Shown here: positions 1,908 to 15,388 of the stretch, in pieces
Layout of the letters: every line of letters starts with the position of its first letter
How positions within the stretch are numbered: the first letter of the stretch is position 1
Assembly (NCBI GenBank): GCA_019119365.1
Contig: DWXD01000039.1
Span: forward strand, 1-50,105
Source of the DNA: Candidatus Gemmiger stercoripullorum
Lineage (GTDB): Bacteria > Bacillota > Clostridia > Oscillospirales > Ruminococcaceae
DNA length: 50,105 nucleotides
Direction: 5' to 3'
Notes under the pieces: generated by a model
Told to the model about the DNA's origin: nothing
Database searches by the model: none
The model's input: only the letters and a program-made list of their open reading frames with translations
Translations under genes and position numbers: made by a program

Positions 1908-2942
1908 ATGGACAGCCAGCCCGCACAAAACCGCTACCTGCCGGAGCTGGACCTGGTCCGCACGGCGGCCACCGCGCTGATCCTTGTCTACCATTTTGCG
2001 GCCGAGTTTGCCGCCGCCGGGCTGCTGCCGGGCGCGGCGTGGCCCGCGTTCGGGGCGGAGGTTGGCATCGAGCTGTTCTTCCTGCTTTCGGGCGCAAGCC
2101 TGTGCTGGGGGCGCGGCGGCCGGTTCGACGCCCGCCGGTATTACGCCGGGCGGGCGCTGGCCATCTACCCGTGCTTCTGGGTCGGGTTTGCGGCGCTGTT
2201 TTTGTACGGCGAAGTGCTGCACGGCAACAATGCCGGCATCCCCAAATGGAAGCTCGTATTTTCTGTGCTGGGGCTGGACGGCTACCTGCTGCCGCTGGGC
2301 GCAAACTTTTACAAGATCGGCGAGTGGTTTTTGGGCTGCCTGCTGTTGATCTACCTGCTGTTCCCGCTGCTGCGGCGGCTGCAGAACGGCCGCCGCCGCT
2401 GCCTGGCGGCCACCGCCGCGCTGGGCGCGGTGTGGCTGGTTTGGCCGCTGTGCTGCCCGCCCCCGTGGGACGCGGCGCACACGGTGCTGGGGCGGGTGTT
2501 CGTGTTCTGGTGCGGTATGCTGGCCGCGCGTGTGCTGCGCGCGCCGCGCCGGTTGGGCCTGCTGGCCGCGCTGGCGGGCGGCGGGGCGGTGCTGGCGCTG
2601 GCGGCCCTGCCGTGGCCGGGGCGCTGGCCGCAGCCTGCGGCGCTGTGCGCCGCGCTGCTGGTGCTGGCGCTGGCGGGCCTGGGCGGCCCGGCGCTGGACC
2701 GCTGGCCCCGCGCGGCGGGGGCGGCGCTGCGCTGGTGCGCGCGGCAGAGCTACGCCGTGTTTTTGGTGCACCATGTGTTTTTGACCCTTGTCGCCGTGCC
2801 GCTGGCCCGCCGCCTTGCCCTGCCCGCGGCCGTGTGGTTTTTGCCGTATGCGGCCGCCTGCCTGGCCCTCGGCGCGGTTTTGGTCATTGTGGCCAAACCC
2901 GTGCGGTTCGTTTTGGCGAAAGCGCTGGGGGCCGCGCGGTAA
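1908..2942 (+). CDS. Acyltransferase 3 family membrane protein
   Basis: A 344-residue multi-pass protein of the acyltransferase-3 (OafA/YrhL-like) family, which moves acyl groups, often acetyl, onto sugars or other surface molecules. The N-terminal signature is LPELDLVRTAA...LILVYHF with the conserved histidine at residue 29. A GAELFFLLSGASL-like segment and about nine to ten hydrophobic helices follow, and a late SYAVFLVHHVFLTL helix is typical. The start is set by GAAGGTG about 8 nt upstream of the ATG. The acceptor is not predictable; neighbours give no cell-wall context. The gene is very GC-rich. Confidence 0.85.
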   Translation: MDSQPAQNRYLPELDLVRTAATALILVYHFAAEFAAAGLLPGAAWPAFGAEVGIELFFLLSGASLCWGRGGRFDARRYYAGRALAIYPCFWVGFAALFLYGEVLHGNNAGIPKWKLVFSVLGLDGYLLPLGANFYKIGEWFLGCLLLIYLLFPLLRRLQNGRRRCLAATAALGAVWLVWPLCCPPPWDAAHTVLGRVFVFWCGMLAARVLRAPRRLGLLAALAGGGAVLALAALPWPGRWPQPAALCAALLVLALAGLGGPALDRWPRAAGAALRWCARQSYAVFLVHHVFLTLVAVPLARRLALPAAVWFLPYAAACLALGAVLVIVAKPVRFVLAKALGAAR

Positions 2943-3529
2943 AGGCGGGGTGGGCGTTCACCGCGGTTCGTAGGGGAGGGCCATGGCCCTCCCGCGGGAC
3001 CTTGCGGTAGCGCAAGCCGGGCCGATATGGAATCGGCCCCTACAGAGGTTTGCGTTTGCGCAAGGTTGCGCCTTCCCGGTCGGCCACTATGTTTCCCCCG
3101 TTCTGTAGGGCGGGCGTTCACGCCCGCCGCACCGCGGCGATTCAAAACCGGGATGTTCGCAATGCCGCAGGGTGCGGCGGGATGAGGGCATCCCGCCCTA
3201 CGGCCGCCCGGGCGGCCGCAGCCGTTCCGGTTGGCCCGGAACGAAAAAATTGTTCGTAGGGGCGGGATTTACTGCGCCCGCAGGCGCGTTTCGGAGGCCA
3301 ACCGCCGCGCAGCGGCGGCTCTTAGGCCGGAGATCCCGCCCGCGGGACCTGCGGCAACGCAAGGTTCCCGGGACGATGCGAGCATCGTCCCCTACATGGG
3401 TTTGCGTCTCCCGGTCGGCCGCGAACCGCCCCCAAAACCCAATTCCTCATTCCTCATTCCTCATTCCTAATTCCTAATTTTCCCCCCGCCTTCCCACCTC
3501 CTCAACCCTGAAAAAACGGAGAGTCTCCC
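2943..3529. repeat. Intergenic palindrome cluster 2
   Basis: No gene is seen. Units include GGGAGGGCC/GGCCCTCCC (2974-2993), GGGCCGAT/ATCGGCCC (3019-3039), GGCGGGCGT/ACGCCCGCC (3109-3128), GGCGGGATG/CATCCCGCC (3176-3197), a GGGCGGGAT unit split by the 62-bp insert (3260-3341), and GGGACGATGC/GCATCGTCCC (3370-3391). The end of the tract (about 3446-3480) is a period-7 array of CTCATTC/CTAATTC units immediately before the radical SAM gene. Confidence 0.85.
3271..3332 (-). repeat. 62-bp structured insert, copy 2
   Basis: Reverse-orientation copy beginning ACTGCGCCCGCAGG and ending GGCCGGAG. It sits between GGGCGGGATTT and ATCCCGCCC, so removing it restores an intact palindrome. No clear target duplication is visible beyond a one-base ambiguity (A). 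Confidence 0.85.
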
Positions 3530-4921
3530 ATGCCTCTTTTGAGCCGGGCGGAAACGCAGTTTTTGCGCCGCCATCTGAACCAGGTCTGTCATGTCACGCT
3601 GGACCCTGCGGGGCCCGGCGTGGTGCGCATCCACCTTGTGCCCAACCGCCACCGCGTGTGGGAGGTCCCGTTCGTCGCCATCCTCAACGGGCGGGACATT
3701 CTGCCGCTGCGCGTGTCGTGGGCGATCTTGCTGGCCAACTTCATCGAGGCGCTGCACGCGCATGAGGGCGAAACGCTCACGCCGGAGCAGCGCGACGCCG
3801 CCGCCCGCGCCGCCGTGGAGGCGACCGCCGCCGTCTACCGCAAAACGCCGAAAGAGCAGATCGCGGCCGATCTGCAGAGCATGATGGCGACGCTGTTCGC
3901 CGTGGCGCACGGGCAGACCCCGCCGCTGGGCGTGCAGGCGATGGACCTGGGGGCCTATGCGCCGCACATGACCGCGCCCCACCGCATCGACCTGCTTGTC
4001 AGTGCGATGGTCAAGGACGGGGCCTGGCACTGCAACCAAAAATGCCTGCACTGCTACGCCGCGCGCCAGCCCTACGGCGCGGTGGAGGAGCTGGACACCG
4101 ACCAGTGGCTGGCCGTGATCCAGAAATGCCGCGCCGCCGGGGTGCCGCAGCTGACCTTTACCGGCGGCGAGCCCACGCTGCGCCACGACCTGGTCAAGCT
4201 GGTGGACGCGGCGCAGTGGTTTGTGACCCGCCTGAACACCAACGGCCGCATGCTGACCCCGGCGCTGTGCCGCGAGCTGTATGAAGCCAGCCTGGACAGC
4301 GTGCAGGTCACGCTCTATTCCGCCGACGAAGCCACCCACAACACGCTGGTCGGCGCGGCCGGTTTTGCGGACACCGTCGCGGGCATCCGCAGCGCGGTGG
4401 AGGCGGGGCTCAATGTCAGCGTCAACACGCCGCTGTGCAGCCTGAACCGGGACTATGCCGCCACGCTCACGCTGGCCCACAGCCTGGGCGTGCGCTATGC
4501 CACCTGCAGCGGGCTGATCCCCGCCGGGCGCGCCGAGAGCACGGCCAGCCGCGCCACCCGCCTGACGCCCGAAGAACTGGCCGGTGTGCTGCGCACCGCG
4601 CAGGACGCCGCCGCCCGCTTGGAGATGGAACTGGATTTCACAAGCCCCGGCTGGCTGGACGACGACACGCTGCGCGCGCTGGGCTTTGCGCAGACCCCGC
4701 GCTGCGGGGCGTGCCTGTCCAACATGGCCATTGCGCCGGACGGCACCGTGCTGCCCTGCCAGAGCTGGCTGCGCGGCCCGGCGCTGGGCAACATCCTGCA
4801 CCAGCCGTGGCGGCGCATCTGGGGTTCGCCGGCCTGCCGCCGCATCCGCCGCCAAAGCGCCAAAATGCGCCCCGGCTGCCCGCTGGGGTCCACCCCGATC
4901 CAAAAGGAGGGCAACCCATGA
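3530..4921 (+). CDS. Radical SAM/SPASM maturase-like enzyme
   Basis: A 463-residue protein. An atypical 150-residue N-terminal region precedes a radical SAM core with the [4Fe-4S]-SAM cysteines C168, C172, C175 (CNQKCLHC) and the SAM-contacting GGEP at 212-215. The C-terminal part carries five further cysteines (C392, C395, C410, C436, C450) with the IAPDGTVLPCQSW...GNILHQPWRRIW pattern of SPASM domains, which bind auxiliary clusters in peptide and protein maturases. GGAGAG about 8 nt upstream supports the start. The stop overlaps the next start as ATGA, and that gene encodes a cysteine-ladder membrane protein, an obvious candidate substrate. Membership in the SPASM superfamily is firm; the substrate is an inference. 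Confidence 0.9.
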   Translation: MPLLSRAETQFLRRHLNQVCHVTLDPAGPGVVRIHLVPNRHRVWEVPFVAILNGRDILPLRVSWAILLANFIEALHAHEGETLTPEQRDAAARAAVEATAAVYRKTPKEQIAADLQSMMATLFAVAHGQTPPLGVQAMDLGAYAPHMTAPHRIDLLVSAMVKDGAWHCNQKCLHCYAARQPYGAVEELDTDQWLAVIQKCRAAGVPQLTFTGGEPTLRHDLVKLVDAAQWFVTRLNTNGRMLTPALCRELYEASLDSVQVTLYSADEATHNTLVGAAGFADTVAGIRSAVEAGLNVSVNTPLCSLNRDYAATLTLAHSLGVRYATCSGLIPAGRAESTASRATRLTPEELAGVLRTAQDAAARLEMELDFTSPGWLDDDTLRALGFAQTPRCGACLSNMAIAPDGTVLPCQSWLRGPALGNILHQPWRRIWGSPACRRIRRQSAKMRPGCPLGSTPIQKEGNP

Positions 4922-6036
4922 GCGAACAGACCCCCCTGCGCCGCGCCGCGCGCCTGTGCGCGGCGGCGGCCGCCGCGCTGCTTTTGTGCCTGGCTGCCGC
5001 GTGGTTGTGCCCGGCCAGGGCCGACCTTGACCGCATCCGCAGCTACACCGTCACGGTGGACCCGCGCGCCGACGGCAGCGCCGACATCACCTATGACATC
5101 GACTGGGAGGTGATCGGCGGCAGCGCCGAAGAACCGCTGTCCTGGGTGCGCATCGGCCTGGCCAACGGCGAGGTGGACAGCTTCGAGAACCTCACGCCCG
5201 AAACCGTCTCCGGCGTGCGCTATTCCGGCGACGGCGGCGGGTCGTTTGCGCGCGTGACCTTCAAAAAGCGCTACTACCCGCCCGACTACGCGGCCGCCTC
5301 CGGCCAGGAGAGCCGCGTGCAGTTCGCCTTCCGCGTGCACCAGAGCCAGCTGTACACCCTCAACGAGGATGGCACGGCCAGCTATGTGTTCACGCCCGGC
5401 TGGTTCAGCGATTTGAGCATCGACGAGATGACGGTGCGCTGGCGCGCCGACGAGGGCGTGACCGCCGACGCGACCGATTCGGAGGACGGCTACTTTGTCT
5501 GGCGCTTCGGCGCGCTGGGGCACGATGCGCGCGCCACCGTGCGCGTGCGGGTGCCCGCCGCCGCGGCCGCCGCCTTTGACCCGGCCGCCGCGCTGCCCGC
5601 CGCCGGGCAGAGCTCCGCGCTGACGGACCTGATCCCCGCCTTCGTGACGCTGGTCGTCGTGCTGCTGGCCGTGTATGCGCTGGTGCTGGCGGCACGCTCC
5701 CACCCGCGCTGGCGCGGCGGGTTCGGCAGCGCGGCGTCCGACTGGGTGTTTTACACAAACGGCCTGCACACCATCCACCTGGCGCGCGGGCTGACGCCGC
5801 CGCCCGGCTACCGCCCCGCCCCGCCGCCGCCCGGCTTTAAGGCCGGGGGCGGGCAGTTCCGCGGGGGCGGCGCGGGCAAAAGCGATTCCGGCCACAATGC
5901 GGGCTGCGCGTGCGCGTGCGCCTGCGTGAGCTGTGCGTGCGCCTGCGCCTGTGCGGGCGGCGGGCGCGCCGGGTGCAGCGCCAAGAACTTCTACCGCATT
6001 ACGATGGCAGACGGGGGAAACAGCGATGAGCATTGA
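4918..6036 (+). CDS. Membrane protein with Cys-Ala ladder tail
   Basis: A 372-residue protein with a signal peptide (residues 1-36), an extracellular beta-rich domain (about 37-215) resembling DUF2207-type ectodomains, a transmembrane helix (237-259) and a cytoplasmic tail. The tail runs through a Pro/Gly-rich linker (292-325) to HNAG followed by two CACACAC runs separated by VS, then AGGGRAGC. Cysteines are at 330, 332, 334, 336, 339, 341, 343, 345 and 353. The tail faces the cytosol, where the radical SAM enzyme encoded just upstream acts, so it may be cross-linked or made to hold metal. AAGGAGG lies inside the upstream gene. The start overlaps the maturase stop by 4 bp and the end overlaps the AAA+ gene by 11 bp. 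I know no characterised family for it. Confidence 0.85.
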   Translation: MSEQTPLRRAARLCAAAAAALLLCLAAAWLCPARADLDRIRSYTVTVDPRADGSADITYDIDWEVIGGSAEEPLSWVRIGLANGEVDSFENLTPETVSGVRYSGDGGGSFARVTFKKRYYPPDYAAASGQESRVQFAFRVHQSQLYTLNEDGTASYVFTPGWFSDLSIDEMTVRWRADEGVTADATDSEDGYFVWRFGALGHDARATVRVRVPAAAAAAFDPAAALPAAGQSSALTDLIPAFVTLVVVLLAVYALVLAARSHPRWRGGFGSAASDWVFYTNGLHTIHLARGLTPPPGYRPAPPPPGFKAGGGQFRGGGAGKSDSGHNAGCACACACVSCACACACAGGGRAGCSAKNFYRITMADGGNSDEH

Positions 6037-8086
6037 ACAGCAGTACGACGCCTGGGTACAGGGGCTGGTGGGCGGCAAGCGCAGCGCCGCCGGGGAAAGC
6101 GAAGACGCGCGCAGCAGCCTGGAGCAGATGCAGGCGCAGCTGGACGCGCTGGCCGCCGGGCAGAAACGCCAGACCGCGGCCGCCAAAGCGCTGGACGCCG
6201 TGCAGAAAGCCGCGGGCGCGACCGCCGAAAGCGTGCGCCGCATGAGCAGCGAACTGACCAGCAGCCTGCGCAGCGACGGGCTTTTGGACAGCGCGCAGGC
6301 GCAGCCGCCCGCCGCGGCCGCCGCGCCGGACCGCGCGCGCGCCGGGTTCGACGGCCTGGCCGCCCGGGTGCGCGCCCGGGTCATCGGGCAGGATGAATTC
6401 GTCGCCGATGTCGTCAAGGCGTTCCGCCGCCCGTTTGTGATGGGCGCGCCCGGGCCGGACAAAGCGCGCGGGCTGATGCTCCTGTGCGGCCAGCCCGGCA
6501 CCGGCCGCCACTTCACGCTGCGCTGCGTGGCCGAAGAACTTGCCGCGCGCGGCATCCTGCGCAGCGCCGCGGTCGAAACGCTGGACCTTTCGCTCTACCC
6601 GGGCCCGGCGCAGGAAAAACTGTTTTTGCAGGACCTGTATTCGGCGCTGCAGTCGGACGCCGAGGTGCTCGCCTTTGACAACTACGAAGCCTGCGCGCCC
6701 GGTTTCCGCAACATGCTGGCCACGCTGGCCGCCGAAGGCACGCTGGCGCTGGCCAACCGCTATGTGCTGCAGCGCGGCATCCTGGTCGACGTCGGCACGG
6801 CGCTGGCCCCCGGCGCGGTCGGCGAGCTGCAGGCCGCGGGCAAATACTTCGTGTTCTTCTCCGCCAAAGGCGAGGACGCGCTGGCCGAGGCGTTCGGCGC
6901 GCGCTTTGTGGACGCGCTGGCCGGGGATATCTGCCGCACCGCGCCCTTCACGCCCGAAAGCCTTGCCGCCATTGCGGCACGCGGGCTGAACAGCCTTGCG
7001 CAGGAGACGCGCCGCCAGACCGGCCTTGTGCTGGGGATGGGCGCCGACGTGCGCGATTTTGTCGCCGGGCAGTACGGCAAGACCGGCGGCATGGACGCGA
7101 TGGCGCAGTATCTCGACACGATGCGCCGCGCCCTGGCCGAATATGTTCTGGAAACCGACCCGGCCCCCGCCGCCGGGACCGCCGTGGCGCTGCGGGTGGA
7201 AAACGGCCGCCTGCTGGCCGCCGTGGGCTCCGGCGCGCCGTTTGACCTGCTGGCCCTGCTGCCGCAGGCCTACCGCGGCGACATCGAGGCCGTCGAGGCC
7301 GAGCTCGACGCCATCGTCGGCCTGGAACCGGTCAAGAGCTACCTGCGCGAGCTGGCCGCCAACGTCCAGGCCCAGCAGCGCCGCAAGGCCCAGGGCCTGC
7401 CGGTGGCCGAAGTCAACCGCCACATGATCTTTACCGGCAACCCCGGCACCGGCAAAACGACCATCGCGCGCATTTTGTCCAAATACCTCAAAGCCATCGG
7501 CGCGCTGCGCGGCGGCCAGCTTGTCGAAGTGACCCGCGCCGACCTGGTCGGGCGCTATGTCGGCCACACCGCGCCGCTGACCAACCAGGTCATCCAGAGC
7601 GCGCTGGGCGGCGTGCTGTTCATTGACGAAGCGTACAGCCTCTACCGCAGCCGGGACGACAGCTTCGGCCTCGAGGCCATCGACACGCTGGTCAAGGGCA
7701 TCGAGGACCACCGCGACGACCTCGTCGTCGTGCTTGCGGGGTATACAAAGGAGATGCAGCAGTTTTTGCAGGCAAACTCCGGTTTGGCAAGCCGCTTCCC
7801 CAACCAGATCGAATTCCCGGACTATACGGCCGAGGAGCTGTGGCGCATCACGGCCCTGCAGGCCAAGGGCAAGGGCTATACGCTGGACGCGGGCTGCGAA
7901 GCGCCGCTGAAAGCCTACTACGCCCGCCGCCAGCAAGCCGACGCCGCCAAGGCCGGCAACGGCCGCATGGCGCGCAACGTGCTGGAAAAGGCCATCCTCA
8001 ACCAGGGCAAGCGCCTGATCGCCGACCCCGCCGCCGATCTCGCCCTGCTGCTGCCGGACGACTTTGAGCTGGAAGAGGACGCGTGA
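6026..8086 (+). CDS. Two-module AAA+ ATPase, CbbX/SpoVK-like
   Basis: A 686-residue cytosolic protein. A helical N-terminal region (1-105) is followed by a Clp-like first module starting VIGQDEFVADVVKAFRRPF, whose Walker A is degenerate (GQPGTGRH, 155-162, lysine replaced by arginine) and whose Walker B reads LAFDNYEA. The second module is canonical: GNPGTGKT (471-478), LFIDEA (531-536), sensor VVLAGY (568-573) and arginine finger SRF (589-591). Module two resembles the CbbX, SpoVK and EccA ATPases, which remodel protein complexes. The start overlaps the Cys-tail protein by 11 bp. A plausible role is remodelling or delivering the modified membrane protein; this is inferred from operon structure only. 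Confidence 0.9.
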   Translation: MSIEQQYDAWVQGLVGGKRSAAGESEDARSSLEQMQAQLDALAAGQKRQTAAAKALDAVQKAAGATAESVRRMSSELTSSLRSDGLLDSAQAQPPAAAAAPDRARAGFDGLAARVRARVIGQDEFVADVVKAFRRPFVMGAPGPDKARGLMLLCGQPGTGRHFTLRCVAEELAARGILRSAAVETLDLSLYPGPAQEKLFLQDLYSALQSDAEVLAFDNYEACAPGFRNMLATLAAEGTLALANRYVLQRGILVDVGTALAPGAVGELQAAGKYFVFFSAKGEDALAEAFGARFVDALAGDICRTAPFTPESLAAIAARGLNSLAQETRRQTGLVLGMGADVRDFVAGQYGKTGGMDAMAQYLDTMRRALAEYVLETDPAPAAGTAVALRVENGRLLAAVGSGAPFDLLALLPQAYRGDIEAVEAELDAIVGLEPVKSYLRELAANVQAQQRRKAQGLPVAEVNRHMIFTGNPGTGKTTIARILSKYLKAIGALRGGQLVEVTRADLVGRYVGHTAPLTNQVIQSALGGVLFIDEAYSLYRSRDDSFGLEAIDTLVKGIEDHRDDLVVVLAGYTKEMQQFLQANSGLASRFPNQIEFPDYTAEELWRITALQAKGKGYTLDAGCEAPLKAYYARRQQADAAKAGNGRMARNVLEKAILNQGKRLIADPAADLALLLPDDFELEEDA

Positions 8087-8318: not shown

Positions 8319-8664
8319 ATAAGATTGCCCCCGCTAAGGCGGGGGCATTTTTAAATAAACGGGCCAGCCAGGACTTGAAAGCCCGGCGGCGTAAGCCGCA
8401 AAAAACAGTCCGGTGGACTGTTTTTTAGGGCGTGGGTGGCGTGGTCCCTGGCTGGCCCACCACAATTTTGCCCCCGCTAAGGCGGGGGCATTTTTTAATA
8501 AGCGGGCCAGCCAGGACTTGAAAGCTCGGCGGCGCAAGCCGCAAAAAACAGTCCGGTGGACTGTTTTTTAGGGCGTGGGTGGCGTGGTCCCTGGCTGGCC
8601 CACCAATAAGATTGCCCCCGCTAAAGCGGGGGCATTTTTTAATAAATGGGCCCGCCAGGACTTG
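8303..8664 (+). repeat. Tandem tRNA-Ile 3'-end/terminator array
   Basis: Three direct copies of the tRNA tail CCTGGCTGGCCCACCA lie at 8303, 8447 and 8590, each followed by a GCCCCCGC..GCGGGGGC terminator. After each terminator comes an inverted copy of the same tRNA segment (GGGCCAGCCAGGACTTG at 8361 and 8504, a variant at 8648). The period is 143-144 bp. Between copies lies a hairpin ACAGTCC..GGACTGT flanked by A and T runs and followed by TTTTTAGGGCGTGGG. Each inverted copy could pair with the preceding tRNA tail and enclose the terminator. A comparable arrangement follows tRNA-Glu. Confidence 0.9.
8327..8352 (+). terminator. Terminator of tRNA-Ile2
   Basis: GCCCCCGC/GCGGGGGC stem with TAAG loop, then ATTTTT. 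Repeated copies occur at 8470-8496 and 8614-8640. Confidence 0.9.
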
Positions 8665-8689
8665 AAAGCCCGGCGGCGCAAGCCGCAAA

Positions 8690-9000
8690 CTTCTGTAGGG
8701 GACGATGCTTGCATCGTCCCGGGGACCCCGCGCTGCCGCAGGTGTCCGCGGGAGGGATAAATCCCTCCCCTACGACCAACGGAGGGCCCGCGGCCAACCG
8801 GGAAGCCGCAAGCACTCGGGCGGCCGTAGGGCGGGATGCCCTCATCCCGCCGGGCCCCGCGGCAAAACAACCCCCCGAATTTTGAATTGCAAAGGAAGGT
8901 GCGGCGGGCGGTCGCGTTCAGCGGGCCGCCGCCTTCTTCCTGCATCCCGCCCGCGCGGCGCGCATAGGTATGGGGGTATATCCCAAAAGGAGGCGGGCGC
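8690..9000. repeat. Intergenic palindrome cluster 3
   Basis: Palindromes GGGACGATGC/GCATCGTCCC (8699-8720), GGGAGGGAT/ATCCCTCCC (8750-8769) and GGCGGGATG/CATCCCGCC (8830-8851) follow the tRNA array. The last part holds the AAAGGAGG ribosome binding site of the next gene. No gene or clear promoter is visible. Confidence 0.8.
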
Positions 9001-10281: not shown

Positions 10282-11400
10282 AACCGCACCTGTAAACCAC
10301 GGAAAACGACCCGCCAACCGGGAAACTGCGGTCCCTACGTTATGACAAACCTCTGTAGGGGACGATTCCATATCGGCCCGGGGGGCGCGGCACCGCAAAC
10401 ACCCCGGGCGGGATAAATCCCGCCCCTACAAACCTTCCGAACACGACCCGCCAAACCGGAACGGCCGCAACCACCCAGGCGGCCGTAGGGCGGGATGCCC
10501 TCATCCCGCCGTACCCCGCGGCGGCGCAAACGTCTCAATTTTAAATCGCCAATGTGCGGCGGGCGTGAACGCCCGCCCTACGGAACGGGGAAAATGCGGC
10601 GGTCAACCCGGAAACCGCGGCCCTGCGTTACAACAAACCTCTGTAGGGGACGATGCTTGCATCGTCCCGGGAACCCTGCTGCACCGGAAGGTCCTCGGGA
10701 GGGCCATGGCCCTCCCCTACAAACCTTCCGAACACGACTCGCCAAACCGGGACGGCCGTAACCACCCGGGCGTTCGTAGGGCGGGATGCCCTCATCCCGC
10801 CGCACCCCGCGGCGGCGCAAACGTTTGCGGGCGGATATGGAATCCGCCCCTACGGTCAATGGTAGGGTGTGCGACCAACCGGGAAACCGCAACCTTGTCG
10901 CACCGCAAACCCATGTAGGGGACGATGCTTGCATCGTCCCGGGAAGCCTGCTGCACCGGAAGGTCCCCGGGAGGGATAAATCCCTCCCCTACAAACCTTC
11001 CGAACACGACTCGCCAAACCGGGACGGCCGCAACCACCCAGGCGTCCGTAGGGCGGGATGCCCTCATCCCGCCGCACCCTGCGGCGGCGCAAACGCCCGC
11101 GGGCGGATATGGAATCCGCCCCTACGGATGACGGCGAATGCCGCGGCCAAGCGGGAAAACGCGGTCCCTACGTTATAACAAACCTCTGTAGGGGACGATG
11201 CTTGCATCGTCCCGCACACCCCGCGGCACCGCAAACACCCCGGGCGGGATAAATCCCGCCCCTACAAACCTTCCGAAACCACCCGCCAAACCGGAACGGG
11301 CTGCAACCACCCGGGCGATCGTAGGGCGGGATGCCCTCATCCCGCCGGACCCTGCGGTGGCGCGAGGTTCCATGGGCGGATACGGGACCCGCCCCTGCGC
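10282..11400. repeat. Intergenic palindrome cluster 4 (1.1 kb)
   Basis: No gene. More than ten palindromic units in tandem, including 10406-10425, 10489-10510, 10558-10577, 10647-10668, 10697-10716, 10780-10801, 10829-10849, 10919-10940, 10969-10988, 11052-11073, 11101-11121, 11192-11213, 11242-11261 and 11325-11346. Each has GTAGGG or CCCTAC at one end. Conserved linkers such as CAAACCTTCCGAA and GCGGCGGCGCAAACG recur between units, so larger composite blocks have been duplicated. The unit at 10359-10379 is chimeric, with a GGGACGAT left arm and an ATCGGCCC right arm. Confidence 0.85.
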
Positions 11401-11471
11401 AGGCTTCCGGCGTTCCGGCGGGGCGGGGGAGGGGAGCGCGGGGACAAAAATGTGATTAGCCAAAACTAACC

Positions 11472-13902: not shown

Positions 13903-13955
13903 AGAGTTTGGATTTTAGAGTTAAGAGTTTAGAGTTCAGAGTTCAGAGTTTAGAT
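13902..13955 (-). repeat. Heptanucleotide array, AGAGTTN type
   Basis: A run of imperfect 7-bp units (AGAGTTT, AGAGTTA, AGAGTTC) directly after the pflB terminator, ending in GATGCGG. It belongs to the family found at 18016, 18155, 19022, 19142, 26541, 28022 and 45414. Confidence 0.8.
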
Positions 13956-14030
13956 GCGGTGCGCGGCCTGGCGGCCGCGATGGAAATACGGCGCGGCGGG
14001 ACGCTTGTGGTATTTTGTTTTTGGGGCGCG

Positions 14031-14700
14031 GGCCCCTGCGGACGGCGGCGAATGCCGCGACCAACCGGGATGCTGCGGCCCCGCATTACAACAAACCCCT
14101 GTAGGGGACGATGCTTGCACTGCGCCCGCAGGCGCGTTTCGGAGGCCAACCGGGCCGCAGGCCCGGCTCTTAGGCCGGAGATCGTCCCGGGAACCCTGCG
14201 TCGCCGCAAGGCCCCGGGCGGATATGGAATCCGCCCCTACGAATAAATTTTGTGTTTCACACCAACTGGATGGCGGTGGCATCTGTGCCGGTTCGTAGGG
14301 GAGGGCCATGGCCCTCCCGTGGATGTTCGCGGTACGGCAAGGCCCCGCGGGAGGGGCATGCCCCTCCCCTACAAACCTTCCGAAAATGACCCGCGAAACC
14401 GGACAACCGCAACCCACCAGGGCGGCCGTAGGGCGGGATGCCCCCATCCCGCCGCACCCCGCGGCGGCGCAAGGTTCCCCGGGCGGGATAAATCCCGCCC
14501 CTACGAATAAATTTTGTGTTTGGGGCCAAACAGGGACGGCCGCCGCCTTCCGGGCGTCCGTAGGGCGGGATGCCCTCATCCCGCCGGACCCTGCGGCGGC
14601 GCAAACGTATCAATTTTAAATCACCAAGGTGCGGCGGGCGTGAACGCCCGCCCTGCGGAACCGGAAAAATGCGGCGGCCAACCCGGGAAAACCGCGCGTA
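14031..14700. repeat. Intergenic palindrome cluster 5
   Basis: No gene. Units include a GGGACGATGC palindrome split by the 62-bp insert (14105-14188), GGGCGGAT/ATCCGCCC (14216-14236), GGGAGGGCC/GGCCCTCCC (14299-14318), GGGAGGGGC/GCCCCTCCC (14349-14368), GGCGGGATG/CATCCCGCC (14432-14453 and 14564-14585), GGGCGGGAT/ATCCCGCCC (14481-14500) and GGCGGGCGT/ACGCCCGCC (14633-14652). The word ACGAATAAATTTTGTGTTT occurs twice between units and again in cluster 6. Confidence 0.85.
14119..14180 (-). repeat. 62-bp structured insert, copy 3 (stem variant)
   Basis: Same length and ends as the other copies, but the central stem is CCGGGCC/GGCCCGG instead of CCGCCGC/GCGGCGG, so both arms changed together. 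It lies in a different host palindrome (GGGACGATGCTTGC on the left, ATCGTCCC on the right), which is intact without it. Confidence 0.85.
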
Positions 14701-14704
14701 AAAT

Positions 14705-15388
14705 TTACGCCGCCGGGGCCGATGCGGGCTGCGGGGGCAGCAGGCGCGTGGCGATCAGGAGCCCGTCGGAACCTTCCTGCCCCTGGTAAGAGACAACGGC
14801 CTCGTAGTTGTTTTCCAGATACACCTTTGCCGCCTCGTCGGCGTGGTAGATCTCTTTTTCAACACCGTTGACCATACCGGCTGTGGGCTCATGGTTTTCC
14901 CAATCATAATGCTCGCGCATGGCGGCCGCCCACGCGTCCTGCTCTTCCTGCGTCCAGGTTTCGGCCAGCGGCTGCGGGGTGTGCCAGTAATACGTCACGT
15001 CCGGCAGAACCATCTCGCTGCTGAGGTACAGCCGGAAACCGCTGCTCAGCGCGTTTTGCATGGCCGGCGTATAGCTTTCGGCCGGCGCGCCCAGCGCTTT
15101 TTGCATGGACGCCAGCAGGGCGTCCCGGTCCTGGGCCTGGACCGTTGCCACCACGCCGGCCAGCTGCCCGCCGTCATACGTCAGGCGGATGCCCTGCGCG
15201 GGAACGCCGAACAGCGCGCCGGTTTCGATCAGCACGCTGTTGTCCTCGGCCACGGCGTCCGGGCAGGCTTGCTGCACGGCCTGCTGTGTGGTGTCCCACG
15301 GATACTCCGGCACCTGCACGGCCTTGTGCGCGGCGGTGCACCCCGCCAACAGCAGGGACGCCGCCAAAAGAGCTGCCAACCGTTTCAT
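14705..15388 (-). CDS. Putative lipoprotein of unknown function
   Basis: A 227-residue protein with a lipoprotein signal peptide and lipobox LLAGC (Cys17), so it should be anchored on the outer face of the membrane. The mature region is mixed alpha/beta without a domain I recognise. It has a TYDGGQLAGVVATVQ segment and a C-terminal YEAVVSYQGQEGSDGLL strand pair. GGAAGGTG upstream of the ATG supports the start. It is transcribed against pflB and pflA and shares no operon. Its function is unknown. Confidence 0.75.
   Translation of the reverse strand: MKRLAALLAASLLLAGCTAAHKAVQVPEYPWDTTQQAVQQACPDAVAEDNSVLIETGALFGVPAQGIRLTYDGGQLAGVVATVQAQDRDALLASMQKALGAPAESYTPAMQNALSSGFRLYLSSEMVLPDVTYYWHTPQPLAETWTQEEQDAWAAAMREHYDWENHEPTAGMVNGVEKEIYHADEAAKVYLENNYEAVVSYQGQEGSDGLLIATRLLPPQPASAPAA

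Follow-up and report, generated by a model that had tools for sequence, protein, structure and literature searches.

In a 50,105-nucleotide stretch of Candidatus Gemmiger stercoripullorum (contig DWXD01000039.1, here called the window), the gene for a radical S-adenosylmethionine (SAM) enzyme lies directly upstream of a gene for a membrane protein whose C-terminal tail carries an evenly spaced ladder of cysteines. The two genes accompany each other across genomes, and the core of the system is this maturase/tail pair, not the trio that it forms with a downstream AAA+ gene in the window. We propose that the pair is probably a two-gene protein-modification system, in which the enzyme would modify a full-length membrane protein at several of its cysteines, thioethers being the likeliest product. 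The pairing argues strongly for the cysteine tail being the substrate of the maturase, which we consider highly probable; the closest relatives of the enzyme point, more weakly, to a thioether as the bond formed, with a chance slightly better than even. The three genes, all on the + strand, and their features are as follows (aa, amino acids; RRE, RiPP recognition element; RiPP, ribosomally synthesized and posttranslationally modified peptide).

3530..4921, +, radical SAM maturase, 463 aa (Radical_SAM and SPASM over Pfam cut-offs)
3587..3907, +, predicted RRE-like N-terminal domain, four strands within aa 20-60, then three helices within 62-126 (AlphaFold2 and Foldseek)
4031..4054, +, CNQKCLHC, radical SAM cluster motif CxxxCxxC (C168, C172, C175; invariant in 38 aligned maturase sequences)
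4703..4879, +, truncated SPASM/Twitch-like region, C392-C450 (Pfam and alignment)
4918..6036, +, Cys-ladder membrane protein, 372 aa (4-bp overlap with the maturase gene)
4918..5022, +, signal-peptide-like N terminus, aa 1-35 (hydropathy; helix 6-29 in the model)
5023..5562, +, all-beta ectodomain, aa 36-215 (AlphaFold2 model)
5617..5697, +, transmembrane helix, aa 234-260 (model and hydropathy)
5905..5976, +, Cys ladder CACACACVSCACACACAGGGRAGC, aa 330-353, nine cysteines (sequence and relatives)
5977..6033, +, C-terminal end SAKNFYRIT..., aa 354-372 (in most relatives [ST]xK[DN][FL]Y)
6026..8086, +, AAA+ protein, 686 aa, with an altered first and a SpoVK/CbbX-like second module; accessory (11-bp overlap with the Cys-tail gene)

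The gene calls and overlaps of a sequence-only reading of this locus were reproduced at the same coordinates. Pfam cut-offs were passed by Radical_SAM (71.7 bits; cut-off, 29.5), SPASM (37.3; 21.5), and AAA (80.9; 21.2). No NCBIfam model exceeded its cut-off for any of the three proteins, among the best 25 of 58 listed for the enzyme and the best 25 of 72 for the AAA+ protein. The best curated maturase model for the enzyme was NirJ2 (95.5 bits versus 500), and the SkfB model gave 60.5 versus 300.

The pairing was followed through one genome per species (84,980 genomes), where 537 stretches matched and 516 were relatives; the best 80 of these 516 were examined. The maturase adjoins the tail protein in 80/80 loci. 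The sequence-only reading had linked the maturase to a whole membrane protein instead of a short excised peptide, and maturases usually found without a Cys-tail protein would have spoken against that link; the opposite was observed, and the nature of the partner is borne out by its sequence. A ladder is readable in 74 of the 80 loci, 73 by pattern and one more (L152) by its reading frames. Sixty-nine of these ladders lie beside the maturase in an open frame of 280 aa or more, four are frame-shifted (L152, L155, L157, L164), and one (L130) stands behind an in-frame stop; on the other six contigs, less than 1 kb follows the maturase, and each of them carries the beginning of the tail protein. 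In L130 (about 2070-3174), the stop falls in the ectodomain part of the tail gene and the ladder past it is intact, which may mean a broken gene or a misassembly.

Samples taken from both sides gave the same picture. At E 1e-40, the maturase profile matched 16 of 391 Clostridia genomes; of these 16, 11 fall in this family (10 full-length proteins and one fragment at the edge of a contig) and five in a second system described below. The maturase of the first system is present in 11/391 genomes and the tail profile in 11/382, a sample likely contained in the larger one; these are the same 11 genomes, from 8 genera. Two of the 11 have damaged-looking pair genes: in one (L087, 3660-6592), transposase-like genes split the tail gene next to an open maturase, and in the other, a stop interrupts the maturase frame, with a ladder piece on a separate contig. 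The ectodomain family of the first system occurs in 5/291 Clostridia genomes, all five with the maturase, and no ectodomain relative without a ladder, which would have served as a natural control, was found at E 1e-4 in these 291 genomes. Within the genus Gemmiger, the tail protein is present in 31 of 35 genomes and in 19/19 good ones. In a sample of the family, 55 of 119 genomes match the maturase at E 0.001, with a full-length maturase (E below 1e-130) in only 5, the remaining matches being other radical SAM proteins by score. We also found two tail-protein genes per one maturase in L085 (4782-6709), L149 (7499-10136), and G346 (contigs 115 and 122), where one maturase may serve two tail substrates.

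The ladder itself is strongly conserved. In the window, nine cysteines (positions 330, 332, 334, 336, 339, 341, 343, 345, and 353) were counted, as the sequence-only reading had stated. We compared 84 tails, comprising the window, the species-scan loci, and some further loci, with two contigs counted twice; L087, which departs from the pattern, and L152, which has a short open frame, were left out. There are 6 to 9 cysteines per tail in 83 of the 84 and 10 in one. The spacers are mostly a single Ala (392), followed by ASS (54), AHSS (18), VS (17), VSS (9), VHSS (8), and VRSS (7), and hold no acidic residue. The last spacer has 7 residues in 84/84 tails, which was partly set by the collecting pattern, as this required the end [GS][GS]GR[AV]GC and made the constancy of the end partly one of construction. 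The last 14 residues occur in 7 protein forms versus 82 DNA forms and, since two contigs were entered twice, no two distinct tails share a DNA form. The ladder end is therefore more than chance, being kept at the protein level while its codons vary. A DNA repeat artifact was rejected because of this codon variation, which recurs in the second ladder, where a single protein form is encoded by 10 DNA forms. Over 21 loci, mean identity is 0.88 for the 21-residue ladder end, 0.40 for the ectodomain, and 0.57 for the maturase, and the distances of maturase and ectodomain are correlated (r 0.76).

Tail proteins of the pair measure about 300-445 aa. AlphaFold2 modeled the window protein with a mean predicted local distance difference test (pLDDT) of 80.0; the beta ectodomain is confident, a helix spans 234-260, and residues 311-372 lack structure. 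The claimed single-pass protein thus retains its membrane helix but gains a signal-peptide-like helix at its N terminus and, because this is present in addition to the membrane helix, most of the protein probably lies outside the cell with the ladder inside. An N-terminal and an internal hydrophobic stretch are found in 37/37 tail proteins, and charge balance points to a cytoplasmic tail in 29 of 37, by a rough count in which the peak scored was the ladder itself in seven. Foldseek matched the ectodomain to M1 aminopeptidases, LppM, and an oligosaccharyltransferase subunit, at low template modeling (TM) scores throughout (0.20-0.37 by query length); a solved-structure search with the tail protein gave nothing at E 1, and in the tail proteins tested, the tail reached the cut-off of no Pfam or NCBIfam family. 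Phage and defense libraries yielded only radical SAM/viperin-type and AAA-type matches and none for the tail protein. Our limited literature searches, in which subscription journals were mostly uncovered and absence counts for little, found no report of the tail motifs or of DUF2207 with radical SAM enzymes. In six loci (L081, L151, L154, L156, L170, L172), the part of the protein between membrane helix and ladder includes an additional zinc-ribbon-like stretch, with Zn_Ribbon_1 at 17 of 25 bits on the L081 protein.

On the enzyme side, a full SPASM domain has a seven-Cys pattern. The window enzyme passes the Pfam SPASM cut-off, yet past its radical SAM core it has only five cysteines (C392, C395, C410, C436, and C450), and the SPASM-type enzyme claimed earlier is better described as Twitch-like. 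The template-free AlphaFold2 model (mean pLDDT, 85.9) places strands and three helices before the core, and we predict this N-terminal domain to be RRE-like. An RRE consists of three strands and three helices, and SkfB combines an RRE with a Twitch domain, according to PMC8326336 and PMC6231123, respectively. With the model, Foldseek placed SkfB first and SuiB next (424-465 alignment columns; TM, 0.52-0.57), with anSME structures also among the matches. A family-profile search of solved sequences likewise ranked SkfB first (3e-18), over positions 163-428, the core and the end.

A second pair of this kind supports the general pattern. Its maturases (L088-L092) have a full SPASM-like CxxCx5CxxxC run and share 30.5-32.6% identity with the first maturase in the core; PqqD matched the single enzyme tested at E 0.055. 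Their partners are signal-ectodomain-helix proteins of 565-595 aa that end in an (ACHS)n ladder followed by VSGGA[RK]. The second maturase is present in 10/291 Clostridia genomes and a strong ladder (E below 1e-20) in 10/291, again the same 10; weak matches of the ACHS profile in another 14 of the 291 (E 7.5e-8 to 7.4e-4) were taken for Cys/His-rich low complexity. In all 11 loci read, a third gene encodes a protein of about 330 aa that contains hydrophobic stretches; the ladder core was present in 10. L213, with its ladder in a 57-aa frame and a partial enzyme match, looks like a broken copy. First-system ectodomain profiles do not reach the second-system proteins at E 1e-4, and common descent of the two substrates is thus not shown.

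The AAA+ gene fares differently. The sequence-only reading had described a two-module ATPase and included it in the system as the part that delivers or remodels the tail protein. Two modules are present, but only the second is canonical (GNPGTGKT, FIDE); because the Walker A motif of the first is altered (GQPGTGRH), this module may not hydrolyze ATP normally. The SpoVK and CbbX equivalog cut-offs of NCBIfam were not reached (294.1 of 422.95 and 246.2 of 459.25 bits), whereas the generic AAA cut-off was. All three genes stand together in 17/17 Gemmiger loci; among three loci outside this genus, two carry the whole trio, and the third has the pair but no AAA gene within 14 kb. In the species scan, the AAA gene adjoins the pair in 29 of 80 loci (Gemmiger, Fournierella, a Subdoligranulum, and an unplaced Oscillospiraceae), and it is beside the pair in one further genus (L059). 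Neighborhood comparison thus upheld the maturase and tail genes as a constant pair but not the three-gene association, the AAA gene being present in 26 and missing in 36 of the 62 loci with a tail and at least 3.5 kb downstream. Of 118 family genomes, 14 have near-full-length AAA relatives (E below 1e-180), and 10 of these 14, some of them incomplete, lack a full-length maturase; around seven AAA regions from such genomes, neither maturase nor tail was found, nor, by eye, a common neighbor. Given the 36 loci without it and the relatives that live apart from the pair, we rejected the AAA+ protein as a core part. It is not needed for the pair but may help it in some lineages.

Considering these data, we propose the following model. 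The Cys-tail protein would carry a signal peptide when synthesized; the beta ectodomain is predicted to go outside, anchored by one helix, while a flexible tail with 6-10 evenly spaced cysteines would remain in the cytoplasm. The maturase, encoded directly upstream, would dock on the tail via its RRE-like domain and modify the ladder at several positions, with intramolecular thioethers from cysteine to the intervening Ala, Ser, or Val as the most likely product, by analogy with sacti- and ranthipeptide maturases acting on peptides and with QhpD acting on a protein subunit. Once modified, the tail may remain attached to its membrane protein and form a compact or rigid element in the cytoplasm.

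Alternatively, the ladder may be the substrate of some other radical SAM chemistry, such as epimerization, sulfatase-type cysteine oxidation, or bonds to other tail residues. SPASM/Twitch enzymes catalyze varied reactions, as PMC6231123 and PMC8326336 describe. The anSME structures among the Foldseek matches lean the same way. We nevertheless regard this as unlikely, as many evenly spaced cysteines with small Ala/Ser/Val-rich spacers fit repeated sulfur chemistry better than one conversion, and the sulfatase motif CxP/AxR is absent from the window tail. In another scenario, the ladder binds metal or an Fe-S cluster, and the enzyme has a different substrate or assists in loading; Cys-X-Cys runs are typical of metal-thiolate proteins, and some tail proteins have the zinc-ribbon-like stretch between helix and ladder. 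Two different ladders, each paired with a predicted peptide-modifying enzyme, and the lack of a Pfam or NCBIfam family fitting the tail in the members tested make this distinctly improbable. Least likely of all, the membrane protein would be a disguised RiPP precursor with its modified ladder cut off and released, for which the position of the ladder near the C terminus, after a flexible, often Gly-rich linker and before a conserved end, could be cited, but the predicted location of the ladder is the cytoplasm, the ectodomain is retained throughout, and a rough clustering of 89 loci, insensitive enough to find the maturase itself in 53 and possibly to miss a dedicated protease or exporter, placed no gene cluster in more than 14 loci besides the pair, the AAA gene, and antisense frames.

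Several points weigh against multiple thioether formation on the tail. The chemistry of the pair is a proposal from sequence and models, and unmodified Cys-X-Cys runs could simply bind metal. The profile match to SkfB leaves out the N-terminal domain, and PqqD of Pfam has no match on the window enzyme, so that the RRE assignment rests on the template-free model and the Foldseek TM scores. CteB and SuiB have a full SPASM domain, in contrast to the Twitch-like window enzyme. Close kin contribute to the samples, with 4 of the 11 Clostridia genomes in one genus and about a third of the 80 loci from Gemmiger by title, and the examined set covers 80 of the 516 species-scan matches.

Most of the radical SAM peptide chemistry known to date concerns short excised precursors, QhpC being an exception. 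We tentatively suggest, at somewhat less than even chance, that two radical SAM lineages of Clostridia rebuild cytoplasmic tails into multiply cross-linked Cys ladders (CAC/CASSC and ACHS), yielding attached RiPP-like structural or signaling domains on receptor-like membrane proteins. If true, this would be a little-known way of modifying a whole membrane protein and would extend radical SAM chemistry to lasting membrane-protein modification in common gut bacteria such as Gemmiger formicilis. The tight pairing is seen for two ladder types, with 516 matching stretches in the one-genome-per-species data, of which 80 were examined.

We also observed that in L145, L152, L155, L157, L158, L160, and L164-L169, mostly metagenome-assembled Clostridia genomes from rabbit gut, the codon CGG is very rare and behaves like a +1 frameshift site (for example, L155, 11377-12313 and 12343-15169). 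In 14 loci of this group, an in-frame stop follows within 20 codons at 22 of 29 CGG codons, compared with 31/267 for AGG, 24/191 for GGG, 92/1741 for AGA, 8/270 for CGT, 3/83 for CGA, and 3/51 for CCG, and with 6/115 for CGG in six other Clostridia loci. For 16 of the 29 sites, two of them doubtful, a homolog could be aligned through the CGG in the +1 frame, with Gly opposite CGGN in most; the genes concerned include the tail, the maturase, and others that we take to be UvrA, DnaE, and MurD. The L155 genome, which is incomplete, gave 26 tRNA matches, with the Arg anticodons CCT and TCT only and no CCG. We read CGG as an undecoded codon at which the ribosome would skip C and read GGN as Gly. 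Against this, 7 of the 29 sites run on in frame (three in one L157 gene), several have no homolog, and at the common maturase site, the normal frame also matches relatives with the same CGG. Unassigned CGG is already known (PMC8629427); a limited literature search found no report of CGG frameshifting of this kind. In the window, intergenic stretches at about 2950-3500, 8320-8880, 10300-11450, and 13950-14800 seem to have short sequences in common, judging from similar frame fragments recurring in the list of open reading frames; they are perhaps a dispersed repeat family of this genome.

How does the pair compare with known systems? The ectodomain is weakly similar to DUF2207 (PF09972), but all scores fall under the cut-off of 24.4 bits (13.5 for the window protein; 19.6 and 15.6, E 0.0012 and 0.019, for two second-system proteins, a third having no match). 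The one mutant study of a DUF2207 protein found, in Streptococcus mutans, reports weaker stress tolerance and biofilm formation (PMC10457818); by the Pfam cut-off, however, the window protein falls outside DUF2207. Sacti- and ranthipeptide precursors are short leader-core peptides, whereas the partner here has 372 aa with signal peptide, ectodomain, and helix. The ranthipeptide/SCIFF substrates of CteB and PapB resemble it in being clostridial and in having several cysteines, as described in PMC8172795, but they too are short, and CteB, unlike the window enzyme, has the full SPASM domain. SkfB, the sporulation killing factor sactisynthase, shares the radical SAM core, the Twitch-like end and, by model, a predicted RRE-like N-terminal domain, and is the best solved match by both family profile (core and end only) and fold. 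Its substrate is nevertheless a short precursor peptide in place of a membrane protein, and the window enzyme scores well below the SkfB model cut-off. QhpC, a small subunit of the soluble quinohemoprotein amine dehydrogenase, differs in that its thioether bridges join Cys to Asp or Glu, while the ladder spacers lack acidic residues. By its description in PMC8172795, however, QhpD is a radical SAM enzyme that cross-links cysteines in a protein subunit instead of a released peptide, and in having a protein as substrate it resembles the pair proposed here.

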